From positions 496,001 through 560,000 of the forward strand of contig JAQTUV010000001.1 in NCBI GenBank assembly GCA_028707175.1: DNA of 64,000 nucleotides. Direction: 5' to 3'. The DNA comes from Sideroxydans sp. (GTDB lineage: Bacteria > Pseudomonadota > Gammaproteobacteria > Burkholderiales > Gallionellaceae). Shown piece by piece: positions 58,044 to 63,072 of this stretch. A program made the position numbers and the translations under genes. The stretch's first letter is position 1; the number at the start of each line of letters is the position of its first letter. The notes under the pieces were generated by a model. That model searched no databases. It saw only the letters and a list, made by a program, of their open reading frames with translations, and was not told the DNA's origin.

Positions 58044-58562
58044 CTATTCCAGCGCTAACTTAAATTGGAACGAAACTGCACCTACGACTTGAGGGGTAGG
58101 CGGGATGATCAAGATATTCACGCCGAGTTTCTGGTATTCAAAACTGATGGTCGGTATGGCAGCAAGAAAATATTTCCCGTTATTCATCGCAGGGTAACCA
58201 TCCATCACCCCCACGACGGCACCTAGACGTGCTCTGCCCAGTTGGATCGGTTGGCAATATATGCCAGCGTAATGGGAGGGGCGATACAGACTGTTTTTGT
58301 AGTAACCAATGGTATAGGCATATATCGAAGAGAAGCGATGCTCGACCCCGAGTCCGATATTGCTGTCATTAAAATCTTGAACAGCCTCGTTTTCATCGAC
58401 ATGTTTTGAGTGCACCCCAAAATTGATCCACGTCTCGTCTAATTCCTCGTCCTCGATAAAGTTGCGCCCATGCACGAAGTCCCCCCCCGCATTGGCAGTA
58501 AAAATCGTAGCGCTGAGTAACAGCGCACACAGAAACTGGATGCGAGATCGAAGCCTTGGCAT
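58044..58562 (-). CDS. Secreted barrel-like protein, paralog 2 of the acpH-flanking pair
   Basis: A 172-residue protein with a signal peptide (about 1-25, ending FTANA). From about residue 65 it parallels the protein at 56820-57311: NDSNIGLGVEHRFSS, SHYAGIYCQPIQ, RLGAVVGVMDGYP and a strand-rich C-terminus. The N-terminal third is acidic and different. ATG 58562 follows GGGGGTAACC. Probably periplasmic or outer-membrane; function unknown. The two copies suggest a duplication around acpH. Confidence 0.7.
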   Translation of the reverse strand: MPRLRSRIQFLCALLLSATIFTANAGGDFVHGRNFIEDEELDETWINFGVHSKHVDENEAVQDFNDSNIGLGVEHRFSSIYAYTIGYYKNSLYRPSHYAGIYCQPIQLGRARLGAVVGVMDGYPAMNNGKYFLAAIPTISFEYQKLGVNILIIPPTPQVVGAVSFQFKLALE

Positions 58563-58768
58563 GGTTACCCCCTAGATACATATTCATGAAATACGAACTA
58601 GTTATCGGATGCAGGTACGGAATGTTTAGGCTTAAACCAGCTTAAATATTTGAATCTGCGCGGGAATAGCGCGGAAGGTGCGGGGGGATATTAGAGAGTT
58701 TGAACAGAGGGGCGCAGTGCGGGTGGTTGAAAACAATTCGATGCTGAGCTAACCCGTTTAACTCTTCT
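58563..58768. other. Gap upstream of paralog 2
   Basis: I see no gene. The stretch from 58563 to about 58620 is probably the promoter region of the minus-strand barrel-like gene. The gap continues into the nrdJ relic and a family D repeat. Confidence 0.5.
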
Positions 58769-58809
58769 GGAATCTCTAGCACGCCCGCCTGTTGGATCAG
58801 ATAGCGGTG
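58769..58809 (-). pseudogene. Relic of the nrdJ 3' end
   Basis: On the minus strand this reads YLIQQAGVLEIPEE, matching [14 protein letters not shown] near the C-terminus of NrdJ (encoded at about 59240-59280). Shared DNA includes ATCTCTAGCACGCCC and CTGTTGGATC with scattered mismatches. The similarity stops on both sides, and no zinc-binding tail follows. Confidence 0.75.
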
Positions 58810-58819
58810 CGATGAAATT

Positions 58820-58850
58820 GATGGGTATCGCTACGCTCAACCCATCCTAC
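58820..58850. repeat. Short inverted repeat, family D copy 2
   Basis: GATGGGTATCGCTACGCTCA then ACCCATCCTACG, nearly identical to 23643-23669. It lies just after the 56-residue membrane-protein gene. Confidence 0.65.
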
Positions 58851-58864
58851 GCTAGCTACGCAGG

Positions 58865-59035
58865 CTACCCAATTTTTATCAAGCCAGATGTAAAAGCAAC
58901 CAAGATAAGCCAAGTGATTGCGAAGATTCCAGCTTTTGAGAAATCTCCGTCCTGCATTTTCCCAAGAAGTCCTTTGAGAATATAAAACATAACCAACAGC
59001 CCCATGAGCCATTCGATGAAATTGAGGATTGCCAT
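58865..59035 (-). CDS. Small membrane protein, 56 residues
   Basis: Starts MAILNFIEWLMGLLVMFYIL and ends SGLIKIG, with two predicted helices (about 6-24 and 36-53) joined by a short charged stretch (KGLLGKMQDGDFSKAG). The ATG at 59035 follows AGGA at 5-base spacing. Codon use and the clear two-helix hairpin suggest a real gene. It lies between nrdJ and the nrdJ relic, on the same strand. No family recognised. Confidence 0.6.
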   Translation of the reverse strand: MAILNFIEWLMGLLVMFYILKGLLGKMQDGDFSKAGIFAITWLILVAFTSGLIKIG

Positions 59036-59106: not shown

Positions 59107-62100
59107 TTAACCGCACGCCCCAATCGCCCCGCAACTCGTACAGAACTCACACCCATCCTTCTTGATGAGCGTGGCGTTTCCGCACTCCTTGCACACCTTG
59201 CCGACGATGGGTTTGATAGTGGTGGGTTTGATCTGGCCTTCGGGGATCTCTAGCACGCCCATCTGTTGGATCGGGTAGCCGTTCGCATCGAGGATGCCGA
59301 GCATGGAGAAGCGGTGGATGATGAGCTTCGCCACATACGACACGGTGGAGGGGTAGCTCTCCATCTTGGCGCCACCGGGTACACGCGCCATGAAGTCACC
59401 CAAGGGTTCGCCGAAGTTGAGCAGTTTGCGCAGCTTCATGCCGATCCAAGCGGGGTCGATGACGCGCATGTCCAGACTCAACACTTTGCACAGTCCATCG
59501 AGTGCGCGCGGATACACGCCGGACAACCACATGGAATAGGGGCGACGTTGACCGTCGGGCAGCACGAGTTCTTTCAGGCCCAAAACGAAATCGTCACCGC
59601 TGCCTGCGTTGGAGATGTCCACCGTCCAACTCATGGTGCCGTCGGTGCCGGTCTTGGGTTCTTTCTTGGCGAACAGTGCGTCCATCATCGGCGTGGTCAC
59701 GCCGTCGCTGACTTCCAATGCGCCCAATGCTTCGATGCGATATTTCAGCAAGTGCGCGAAAGCGGCGACCAAGCTGGGCATACGTTTCACTTCGCCATCA
59801 GGTGGCATCTGCATGTCGAAGGCGTCATCGCCCGCTGTCTTCATCAACATTTCTAATTTCATGCGAATCCACACGGGGTCGCGTGTGCGCATGTCCATCG
59901 ACAAGGATTTTGCCAATGCGCCTAAGCCGCGCGGTTGCTCGGAGCCATTTACCCAAACTTCAAAAGGATGGTTGTGGCCATTTGAGGTGTGAGATACGAA
60001 TGCCACAAAGCTGCCCAGCGGATGTTTCACCACTTGCGATGTCCAGCCTTCGCTACCTGAGGGAAGTGAAGGGCGACCTGGCCAACGCAGCGAGGCGAGC
60101 GCAGGTTTGGGGGCGGCTTCCAACACGATGCGGCGGTCTTGGTCGAACACGAAGTCCTGCGGTTGATCTTCCTTCTTGGGTTCTGGCGTGACGGAAAGCA
60201 CGGAGCCCAACACGCTGTTGGGGCGATAGGTCGCCAAGCCCTTCAGCCCAGCTTTCCATGCCTCGGTGTAGAGGTCTTTGAATTCTTCGAACGGGTAGTC
60301 GGCAGGCACGTTCACCGTCTTGCTGATAGAGGTGTCGATGAAAGGCGCGACAGCCGCCACCATCTTCATGTGGTCGATGGCGGAGATATCCAGTGCGGTG
60401 ACGAACTGGTGTGGCAGATTCTCCACATCGCCGCCCATCTTCTTGAACAAGCGCCATGCGTGGTCTTCTACCGAGTAGTCTTTGGTGGTGCCGTCCATCA
60501 TGCGTTTCTTGCGTGTGTAGAACCACGAGAACGCAGGTTCGATACCGTTGGAGGCGTTGTCCGCGAAAGCCAACGAGATGGTGCCCGTGGGCGCGATGGA
60601 GAGTAGGTGACTGTTGCGGATGCCGTGCTTACGGATCTTGTCTTTTAACTCGTCGGGCAGACGCGAGGCGAAGCGCGGTGCAGCGAGATATTTGTCTGCA
60701 TCAAGTAGCGGGAACTTACCGCGCTCGATAGCGAGGTCGACCGAGGCTTGATACGACTCGTCGCGCATGATGCGGGTGATGTCGGCGGCAAAGGCACGCG
60801 CCTCATCGGTGTCATAACGCTTGCCCAACATCACCAGCGCATCGCCAAGGCCAGTGAAGCCCAAACCGACGCGGCGTTTGTTCGCCGCTTCTTGTTGTTG
60901 CTCAGGCAACGGCCATGCGGTCACGTCCAGCACGTTGTCCAACATACGAATGGCGACACGCACCAGTTGCTTGAATGGTTCGTAATCGAAGCCCGCGTGG
61001 TTGGAGAACGGGTTCTTCACCATACGCGACAGGTCGATAGAGCCGAGGCAGCAGCAGCCGTAAGGCGGCAAGGGTTGCTCGGCGCAGTTGTGAACATACA
61101 AGCCGTTGGCATCGAAGGCGTGCACATCGGCTACGGTCACGTCATACACATCTTCCACGCCATCCTCTTCCAGCGATTGCACGGTGGCGACGAAACGCTC
61201 CGCATTTGGTTTGCGTTGGTAATCGGCGAGCAGGTTATTCAGCCTGTCCATCTTGTCACTGTCGGAAAAGCCGATCAACGAGGCGAAACGTCCGAGGTTC
61301 TCACCGCTGATGATGAGTTCGTGCAGGGCTTGGCAGTCGTATTTTTTATTGCCGCCTTTGCCATCAGGTAAAGACTTCAATCCGGCGGGGCGACGATCTT
61401 TATAGATCGTGGCGATGATGCCCAAGCGTTGCAACATGCGCTGAACCGCTTGCAGATTGCCGAGGTCGATCTGTGTTAGTCGAACGCTGACACCTTTGTC
61501 CTGCGTACCTTGCACCGAACCATCGGCATCGAACATGCCACGCAATACGCCGCGATAGAAATCGGAGGAGGCTTGCTCGATGGCGGGCGTGAAGCGTTTG
61601 TTGCCGGGCGTCATGCCTAGCTCCAATGCCAGCGTGCGTAGCGCGCCTGTTGCCAAACGGAATTCACCGCGCCCCTCGATGGGTTTTTGCCAGCCGTTGA
61701 AATCTGCACGGTGGGGGAGCGTGCGTGCCGCATGTTCAGCAGCGCGCATCACACTTGAGATGCCTGCGCCGGGTTGAATGTCATCCCCGTTTGATACTTT
61801 TAATGCACTCGCATCCCAGACGCTCAACACGGCTTTGTCGTTCTTGAGTGTGCCGTCGCCGATGAGTAACCCGATCAAATAACCTTCGGCTTCGCTGTGC
61901 ATGCCTTCCCACGCTGTCAGCGCGCGATGGTCATTCAAGATGATCTGGTCGTTGGCTTTGAGTTCGCCTGCCTTGACCCATTCCGTTTCGCGCACGTAAC
62001 GTGTCATTTTGGAAACACGCAATACTTGATGGTCTGCGGTGAGGCGCAATGTGTGGCCTTCAGTCGTGTTTAATCGCAGGACAGGTTTTGTGCCTGTGAA

Positions 62101-63072
62101 AAAGAAACCTTGCGATTCGGTGGCGTAGGGCTTGCCATCGACCATCGCGTTGAAAGGTTTGCCGATCAATGCGCTGACTTGGCGCGCGCCCTGTTGTGTC
62201 ATCACCCATGTATCAGCGGTGACACAAGGATTCGTAGCCTCGATGACTTCGCAATACGACAGGTTGTTGTCGCGGTTCATCAGGTCGATGAATAACACGC
62301 CCGGCTCGGCGTGGTCGTAGGTGCTTTCGATGATTTGCTTCCACAGGTCGGTAGCGCGCACTTTGCGATACACCCACTTGCCATCGGCGCGTAGTGTCGC
62401 GCCTTCAGCCAAGAGGAGGTCGGAAGGTTTGGCGCTATGCACCAGTTCGAATTCGTTGTCGGCTTCCACGGCTTGCATCAGCGCATCAGTAACGCCGACG
62501 GAGATGTTGAAGTTGCGCAGGTCGCCTTTGTCTTTGGCGCTGATGAATTTCTCGATATCGGGATGGTCGCAACGCAACACGCCCATCTGCGCACCGCGCC
62601 GCGCACCGGCGGATTCCACTGTCTCACAAGAACGGTCGAACACACGCATGTAGGAGATGGGGCCGCTGGCGCGTGAGTTGGTGCCTTTCACATGTGCGCC
62701 TTCGGGGCGGATGCTGGAGAAGTCGTAACCCACACCACCACCACGGCGCATGGTCTCGGCGGCTTGTTGCAAGGCATCGTAGATGCCGGGCTTGCCATCG
62801 ATGCTGCCAGAGATGGCATCACCCACGGGTTGCACGAAACAGTTGATGAGCGTGGCTTGTATCGTCAGACCCGCAGCGGAGTTGATGCGACCTGCGGGCA
62901 CGAAGCCGTTCTCCTGGGCGAGGAAGAACGCCTCTTCCCACTTCGTGCGCTGTTCCGGCTTCTCCGCCTGCGCCAGACCGCGCGCTACGCGGCGACGCAC
63001 ATCCTGCACCGACGTCTCATCCGCTTCCGCGTATTTTTCCAACAGGACTTCGATGCTGATCTCTTGCGTCAT
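59107..63072 (-). CDS. nrdJ: Adenosylcobalamin-dependent ribonucleotide reductase with intein
   Basis: The 1321-codon frame encodes a class II reductase interrupted by a 380-residue intein (residues 283-662), leaving a 941-residue enzyme after splicing. The N-extein has [13 protein letters not shown] (redox Cys78), [15 protein letters not shown] and [11 protein letters not shown]. The C-extein begins [19 protein letters not shown], where Cys663 is the predicted thiyl-radical cysteine and one of Cys673-675 the redox partner. The C-terminal part has two similar segments (about 1030-1120 and 1150-1250) and ends in a zinc-ribbon-like [20 protein letters not shown] tail. It reduces ribonucleotides to deoxyribonucleotides using B12, independent of oxygen. 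It is downstream of serB, separated by 111 bases. Confidence 0.94.
61087..62226 (-). mobile_element. Intein with LAGLIDADG homing endonuclease, in nrdJ
   Basis: Block A begins with Cys283 ([13 protein letters not shown]), block B has TADHQV, and blocks F and G are [21 protein letters not shown] ending in His661-Asn662, followed by extein Cys663. These are all the residues needed for class 1 splicing (C1, block B Thr and His, terminal HN, +1 Cys). Between them are two dodecapeptide motifs, [12 protein letters not shown] and [15 protein letters not shown], of a DOD homing endonuclease, both with their acidic residue, so endonuclease activity may persist. Confidence 0.95.

Follow-up and report, generated by a model that had tools for sequence, protein, structure and literature searches.

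An intein at the predicted radical cysteine of a class II ribonucleotide reductase from Sideroxydans and its scattered presence in the Gallionellaceae

According to the available part of Soucy et al. 2014 (PMC4071816), the rir1-b allele of ribonucleotide reductase (RNR) inteins occurs in Methylococcus capsulatus, Acidovorax sp. CF316, Polaromonas sp. JS666, three Halomonas species, and others; inteins are also known in phage reductases (excerpt of PMC3653736). The catalytic cysteine of RNR classes O, I, and II lies in a finger loop with the motif NXCXE, and the form NPCXE is predominant in class II, with 3,175 of 3,347 sequences (excerpt of PMC9669993). The system described here is the nrdJ gene of Sideroxydans sp. 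(family Gallionellaceae), a class II RNR gene interrupted by an intein. It is located in a stretch of 64,000 nucleotides—the window—that corresponds to positions 496,001 to 560,000 of contig JAQTUV010000001.1 (assembly GCA_028707175.1). Coordinates are window positions, and the gene with all its parts lies on the minus strand. The intein very probably belongs to the rir1-b allele, a name that follows from organism and site, since two of the listed organisms carry a related intein at the same position, between TNP and C[AG]EQ: Methylococcus capsulatus (locus L068, 71% identity) and Acidovorax sp. CF316 (L102, 63%). That the site is known from other reductases had already been stated in the initial annotation of the window. 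A text search of that paper for Sideroxydans gave no hit; a literature search on inteins in Gallionella found none, which does not show that none exists. The observations assembled below make it probable that this rir1-b-type intein is a selfish element in a long-running, mostly within-species cycle of invasion and loss, with splicing, DNA cleavage, and within-species homing as its predicted steps.

The reading frame is free of stops over 1321 codons (59107..63072) and encodes an nrdJ/nrdZ-type class II reductase precursor of 1321 aa, intein included. In the Pfam search of the frame, the reductase barrel PF02867 (E 1.6e-125) spans Intein_splicing PF14890 (E 1.3e-12) and LAGLIDADG_3 PF14528 (E 9.3e-25), and PF00317 is matched as well. 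The NCBIfam search yields TIGR02504 NrdJ_Z with 584.8 bits against a cut-off of 399.95, and it is by homology to this family that the putative dependence on adenosylcobalamin is named. Among enzymes of solved structure, the nearest is 1xje, a B12-dependent reductase of Thermotoga maritima (E 4.3e-72). The N-extein of 282 aa (62227..63072), delimited by the 1xje alignment and empty-site relatives, ends in EATNP and contains Cys78. The C-extein of 659 aa (59107..61086), assigned from sequence, Pfam, and the 1xje alignment, features the remaining barrel and a C-terminal region with CxxC...CxxC at its end—a stretch that resembles a zinc ribbon and whose match to A2L_zn_ribbon stays below the cut-off of that family. 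Cys78 and Cys674 align with Cys134 and Cys333 of the 1xje chain, presumably the redox partner cysteine pair, and Cys663 aligns with Cys322, the cysteine of its NPC sequence. The host thus carries the barrel, the finger loop NP/CAEQ (the slash marks the intein border), and the partner cysteines of a class II NrdJ; its computed length after splicing is 941 aa.

Class 1 LAGLIDADG inteins feature a nucleophile at position 1, the motif TxxH, a penultimate His and a terminal Asn, a Cys, Ser, or Thr at position +1, and two LAGLIDADG motifs. The Sideroxydans insert has all of these together with the fold and is, as judged by its sequence, a class 1 intein with a LAGLIDADG endonuclease, for which splicing and cleavage are predicted. 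It comprises 380 aa from Cys1 to Asn380 (61087..62226)—in precursor numbering, Cys283 to His661-Asn662, followed by Cys663—as delimited by PF14890, the borders of empty sites, and an AlphaFold2 model. The N-terminal splicing part (residues 1–110, border approximate; 61897..62226) carries Cys1, Thr63, and His66 of the block B TxxH. The endonuclease part (residues 111–335, border approximate; 61222..61896), matched by PF14528, contains the first LAGLIDADG motif, LIGLLIGDG with Asp124 (61852..61878), and the second, LRGMFDADG with Asp235 (61519..61545). The C-terminal splicing part (residues 336–380, border approximate; 61087..61221) ends in GLYVHN with the penultimate His379 and the terminal Asn380. 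C1, T63, H66, H379, and N380, the acidic residues D124 and D235, and a Cys at position +1 are present in 36 of 36 fully parsed intein-bearing genes of the Gallionellaceae. The AlphaFold2 model, built from 62 relatives, has a mean pLDDT of 95.8 (an earlier model from 14 close sequences reached 48.3 and was left unused) and matches solved intein homing endonucleases—TliVMA and other VMA inteins, PI-SceI, and PI-PfuI—with a Foldseek probability of 1.00. An intein of 380 residues between NP and CAEQ, with all splicing residues and both motifs, had been proposed by the initial annotation; Pfam, fold, and empty sites bear this out, and its coordinates and the residues Cys283, His661, and Asn662 prove right to the codon; chance can be discounted.

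Since Cys663 (codon 61084..61086) corresponds to the NPC cysteine of 1xje and the NPCXE motif is known from class II enzymes (excerpt of PMC9669993), the intein is predicted to divide the finger-loop motif NPCxE, and a single cysteine would serve both as +1 extein nucleophile in splicing and as radical cysteine in catalysis, in agreement with the earlier assignment. The intein borders are fixed by empty-site relatives, which show the uninterrupted sequence: 70 of 70 fully parsed empty alleles of the family read NP/C[AG]EQP, free of any scar. A scan of genome contigs gave at least 533 stretches that encode a relative, and 80 wide loci were kept. Among these, TNP/C is found in 79, HN/C[AG]EQ in 79, and both in 78; the exceptions are L046, whose contig starts inside the intein, and L103, whose end was missed by the pattern. 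Relatives on viral contigs (n = 50) have a readable upstream border in 49 cases, 44 of which read NP/C. The other five of the 49 (L268, L279, L280, L284, and L288) have the intein one codon downstream, at NPC/C. In the four of these with a downstream border found, the +1 residue is the Cys or Ser at the X position and not the radical cysteine. Because these loci separate the two roles, the coincidence of splicing nucleophile and radical cysteine is frequent but not obligatory.

Within the genus, 34 genomes including the present one comprise 13 with the intein, 15 with the empty site—the uninterrupted near relatives that the initial annotation had proposed to look for—and six without a readable site. 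The family survey covered 158 genomes, 113 of which match the region of the site: the intein is present in 38 and the site is empty in 74, and in one (G118) the contig ends before the site. The fully parsed genes number 106, with 36 intein-bearing and 70 empty; of the other seven, besides G118, G001 and G109 bear the intein and G127, G149, G166, and G171 are empty. On the extein tree of the 106 genes, 27 presence/absence changes are counted, 23 of which are forced by well-supported branches. Shuffled labels give 30.0 changes on average and values as low as the observed one in 60–63 of 500 shuffles; the presence of the intein is scattered almost like chance. These repeated changes and a possible codon footprint, described below, strengthen the earlier suggestion that the element may still be mobile. 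Regarding its source, no close copy was found on an isolated phage or plasmid: 29 phage records have 22–31% identity, two plasmid records approximately 30%, and the viral-contig relatives 31–51%. Since all of these are distant, no immediate vector was found.

Intein and extein are of similar synonymous depth, with mean synonymous differences of 0.53 (extein) and 0.57 (intein) and a correlation of 0.60 (386 of 630 pairs, namely those with an extein pS under 0.6 and an intein pS under 0.75). The intein tree retains many extein clades, and the shorter inteins of 363–364 aa (eight genes) group with one of the two main extein clades. In 28 genes of the main clade, dN/dS is 0.102 for the endonuclease part and 0.090 for the extein; in the same inteins it is 0.135 for the N-terminal splicing part and 0.076 for residues 345–380. 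The similar synonymous divergence, the low dN/dS, and the invariant key residues indicate that purifying selection seems to have kept the endonuclease functional over roughly the time span in which the host genes diverged. The earlier reading of the endonuclease as intact is in line with this: it looks both intact and selected.

In the proposed mechanism, the precursor would be inactive, the intein interrupting the NPCxE finger loop. Attack by Cys1 would be followed by transfer of the thioester to the +1 cysteine—the future radical cysteine—and cyclization of Asn380 would yield the reductase of 941 residues. The released intein of 380 residues would serve as a site-specific endonuclease. In an encounter between DNA of an empty strain and DNA of a strain with the intein, the empty allele would be cleaved close to the codon of the radical cysteine, with the intein allele as template for its repair, and recombination would restore empty alleles. 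A long and mostly within-species course of this cycle is suggested by the similar synonymous divergence, the common clades, the selected endonuclease, and the nearly random presence. The position in the active site is best explained by target choice and not by regulation: the host cannot change these residues.

The homing of such an element may have left a trace in the silent codons beside the site. Codons 0 to +8 of the C-extein (61060..61086) form a synonymous hotspot, and in the main clade their wobble bases differ between intein-bearing and empty genes; the window allele has CAA at +3 and CCC at +4. Third-position changes were counted on the tree in codons of conserved residues and corrected for residue type. 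Synonymous changes within eight codons of the site rank in the top 2 of 701 codon windows in the family and, at the same half-width, among the first two of 348 in 46 loci from other families (46 of 56 loci were used; nine were too short and one, L103, was unparsed). These 46 are all intein-bearing and so do not bear on the association with presence. At half-widths of 5, 10, and 15, the ranks are 4/742, 15/761, and 39/771 in the family and 4/431, 20/380, and 65/374 in the other families. The same loop of the class Ia NrdA from 30 family genomes shows no hotspot at half-width 8 (494/811). Wobble association with intein presence, computed for the main clade (28 intein-bearing and 63 empty genes) over codons 0 to +7, places the site fourth of 654 codon windows, the three higher ones being its neighbors at +1 to +3; the upstream codons −8 to −1 show no association in this clade (159/649). 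When labels were shuffled with kinship ignored, the observed value for codons 0 to +8 was reached in 0 of 5000 cases. Compared with expectations from the genes' own codon use, the 28 intein-bearing genes have CCT at −1 in 13 cases (3.0 expected), CAA at +3 in 25 (11.1), and CCC at +4 in 20 (10.1). The 46 loci of other families repeat the excess of CCT at −1 (11 vs 2.4 expected) and CAA at +3 (18 vs 7.9). Empty genes of the main clade have CCC and CCG at +4 close to expectation (18 vs 18.7 and 34 vs 32.2). This pattern suggests a homing trace—target match or short co-conversion—that becomes borderline once kinship is considered; escape by silent change is the bolder option. In its furthest form, the element would be a very old and still active gene drive in a permanent within-species polymorphism of invasion and loss in this family, whose members are iron oxidizers to judge by the names of relatives, with intein alleles keeping a target-like CCT/...CAA CCC haplotype beside the radical-cysteine codon and empty alleles drifting or escaping by silent recoding; few silent codons of the gene would then change faster than those of the active site. 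We consider this form tentative and rather unlikely.

A number of observations weigh against the cycle of invasion and loss or against its footprint, and they bear on two competing explanations. The footprint analysis was exploratory and used several window widths; in nrdJ from 29 of the genomes in the NrdA set, the hotspot is weaker (61/760), and with a wider range of −6 to +8 the association ranks fourth of 706, with the three higher positions about 575 codons off. Eighteen independent pairs give median p values of 0.070 (+3), 0.039 (+4), and 0.375 (+6), and the 15 genes of the divergent clade show no wobble association. Empty genes are themselves rich in CCT at −1 (14 vs 7.2 expected) and CAA at +3 (38 vs 23.6), and the 46 loci of other families have no excess of CCC at +4 (19 vs 18.8) or at +6 (14 vs 18.8). 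Homing endonucleases moreover tolerate single synonymous changes (excerpt of PMC3024317), which speaks against strong escape. A codon preference that is relaxed locally in nrdJ, or common ancestry of some intein lineages, would produce such a pattern without homing: the borderline pairs, the divergent clade, the codon bias of empty alleles, and the hotspot in the intein-only set (6/662 windows) as well as in the empty-only set (11/710) all fit it. The recurrence of the hotspot in other families, its absence from the homologous NrdA loop, and the stronger departure of intein alleles from their own codon use (CAA at +3) do not, and this explanation appears plausible, if on balance doubtful. The cycle itself is qualified by conflicts between intein and extein branches, most clearly for G003 with G027, whose inteins are sisters (100/99) with a pS of 0.28 compared with 0.41 for the exteins. 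Because the trees disagree in such places, part of the presence pattern is between-species transfer. Tree agreement was judged by eye and correlation; most family genomes are drafts, and the collection holds one genome per species, which leaves within-species homing a prediction. There is no general co-conversion gradient along the extein and only one suggestive pair, G136/G137, and in the shortest parsed intein (312 aa, G119) a deletion of 68 residues at 259–326 falls in the endonuclease part and may have damaged the enzyme. According to a loss-only history, an ancient intein would have entered once and been inherited without regain, empty alleles would be independent precise deletions or replacements, and the endonuclease would be kept for folding or splicing. 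The similar synonymous divergence, the many common clades, the way in which inteins of 363–364 aa and longer ones track the two main extein clades, and a possible import of an empty tract in G137 agree with it. A single gain, however, would require 40 losses on the midpoint-rooted tree compared with 27 mixed changes, some inteins (G003/G027) have moved, mini-inteins lacking the endonuclease are absent from the 36 full inteins, the shortest of which still has 312 aa, and the wobble bases beside the site follow intein presence in the main clade; such a history is judged improbable. Since empty alleles share part of the codon bias and two of the enriched codons are not replicated in the other families, the cycle and its gene-drive form are rated slightly lower, and codon preference and loss-only inheritance higher.

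A third explanation follows the initial annotation in proposing post-translational control: splicing would be held back, for example by redox state, and the oxygen-independent reductase switched on when needed. Activity does formally require splicing; the genome also encodes another reductase, of class Ia type (NrdA of 960 aa with an ATP cone, and NrdB), and has no match to a class III reductase; and DnaB inteins of mycobacteria reportedly sense oxidative stress (excerpt of PMC6195587). A redox-controlled intein should have a conserved cysteine to pair with Cys1 or the +1 Cys, and the family set has none: Cys1 is the only invariant cysteine among the 36 inteins, the next commonest cysteine column is residue 298 in the endonuclease part (27 of 36), and the extein Cys at −9 is unlinked to the intein (25 of 36 with it vs 49 of 70 without). 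In the main clade, seven of 274 variable residue columns are tied to intein presence at p < 0.01, the nearest of them 270 residues from the site, and 74 of the 113 relatives with the gene region live without the intein. A search for NrdA in the 99 family genomes of at least 90% completeness left about 20 without a class Ia-like match; 20 were checked and G115 was left out. A PF02867 gene is present in 19 of these (18 with a single match; in G143 it is split over two contigs) and class III in two, G081 and G112. In four intein-bearing draft genomes, G068, G140, G143, and G180, the interrupted gene is the only one with PF02867, and class III matches are absent. Splicing must thus work in ordinary growth in these four, the intein-bearing reductase being their sole one, unless the drafts miss a gene. 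Without a conserved partner cysteine or a presence-linked residue near the site, the redox switch was rejected, and regulation by splicing is judged highly improbable. Independently of the intein, a class II enzyme as seemingly the only reductase was also observed in G025, G069, G075, G082, G111, G114, G125, G130, G131, G137, G146, G148, G151, and G181, which like the four intein-bearing genomes are 92–100% complete and show a single PF02867 gene without any class III match. Relatives of the class II-only genomes also carry class Ia; G112 combines class II with class III, and G081 has only class III.

The sister loci L158 (G136, intein) and L183 (G137, empty) differ in their affinities. Over the 40 codons flanking the site on either side, G137 is closest to other lineages, and elsewhere it is closest to G136. 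G137 possibly imported an empty tract, with intein gain by G136 from a G134-like donor as the alternative.

Further observations concern the length of the inteins and the surroundings of the gene. In-frame inserts of 14 to 60 aa occur in four of the 36 parsed family inteins, L042 (G019), L043 (G020), L169 (G073), and L010 (G033), and the G087 intein has an in-frame insert of 5 aa. In G019, G020, and G073, which belong to different lineages, the insert bears a ...SLSPNSLPQAGERDAVSLRE-like sequence at a common position after intein residue 340, and the RNA form of the insert folds as a strong hairpin for G019 and G020. The SLSPNSLPQAGERDAVSLRE-type insert is an interspersed genome repeat with 2–10 matches per genome in five of five genomes, including the present one. 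Such in-frame insertion of a palindromic repeat recalls the Rickettsia palindromic elements. At the 3′ end of nrdJ, a fragment seems to be duplicated directly downstream (58764–58821 and 59007–59025, 59238–59285), as a direct repeat of 48 bases (83%) and another, shorter repeat of 19 bases. Further downstream, an open reading frame of 172 aa (58044–58562, minus strand) has no Pfam match at E 0.001. A search of the window for an nrdJ riboswitch with Rfam at gathering thresholds gave four tRNAs only.

The long-term survival of functional homing endonucleases without fixation and decay poses an open question (PMC1654191), and the Gallionellaceae offer a replicated natural system in which asynchronous homing, balancing cost, and repeated transfer can be weighed. 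The double role predicted for Cys663 in splicing and catalysis would, in addition, give an activity readout for splicing. What gives the locus lasting interest is not regulation but its replicated record of gain and loss and the footprint that homing may have left in its silent codons.

Among the known systems, the bnrdE intein of the Bacillus phages SPbeta and phi3T is likewise an RNR intein, with a region matching 87–92% of the query at 29–30% identity; unlike the present host, its host is annotated as class Ib NrdE and not class II. The intein of the Aquifex aeolicus NrdB (R2) similarly separates residues of a reductase catalytic center and leaves an active spliced product, but it lies in the small subunit between metal ligands, and there more iron and a higher activity were obtained with the construct that contained the intein (excerpt of PMC8772380). 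In the PRP8 intein and other long-lived homing endonucleases, a functional endonuclease, long purifying selection, and patchy presence are found as well (PMC1654191; excerpt of PMC3229294); those examples come from a fungus (an intein) and an amoeba (an intron), whereas here one bacterial family shows at least 23 presence/absence changes. PI-PfuI (1dq3) and PI-SceI (1vde) share the fold of the Sideroxydans intein, with Foldseek E values of 8.8e-15 and 2.5e-16 at a probability of 1.00, but differ in host and site and have only 13–16% identity. The entry 1dq3 is itself, we presume, an RNR intein. The kind of element and its site are thus already known, and the Sideroxydans copy is a new member of a widespread selfish element.

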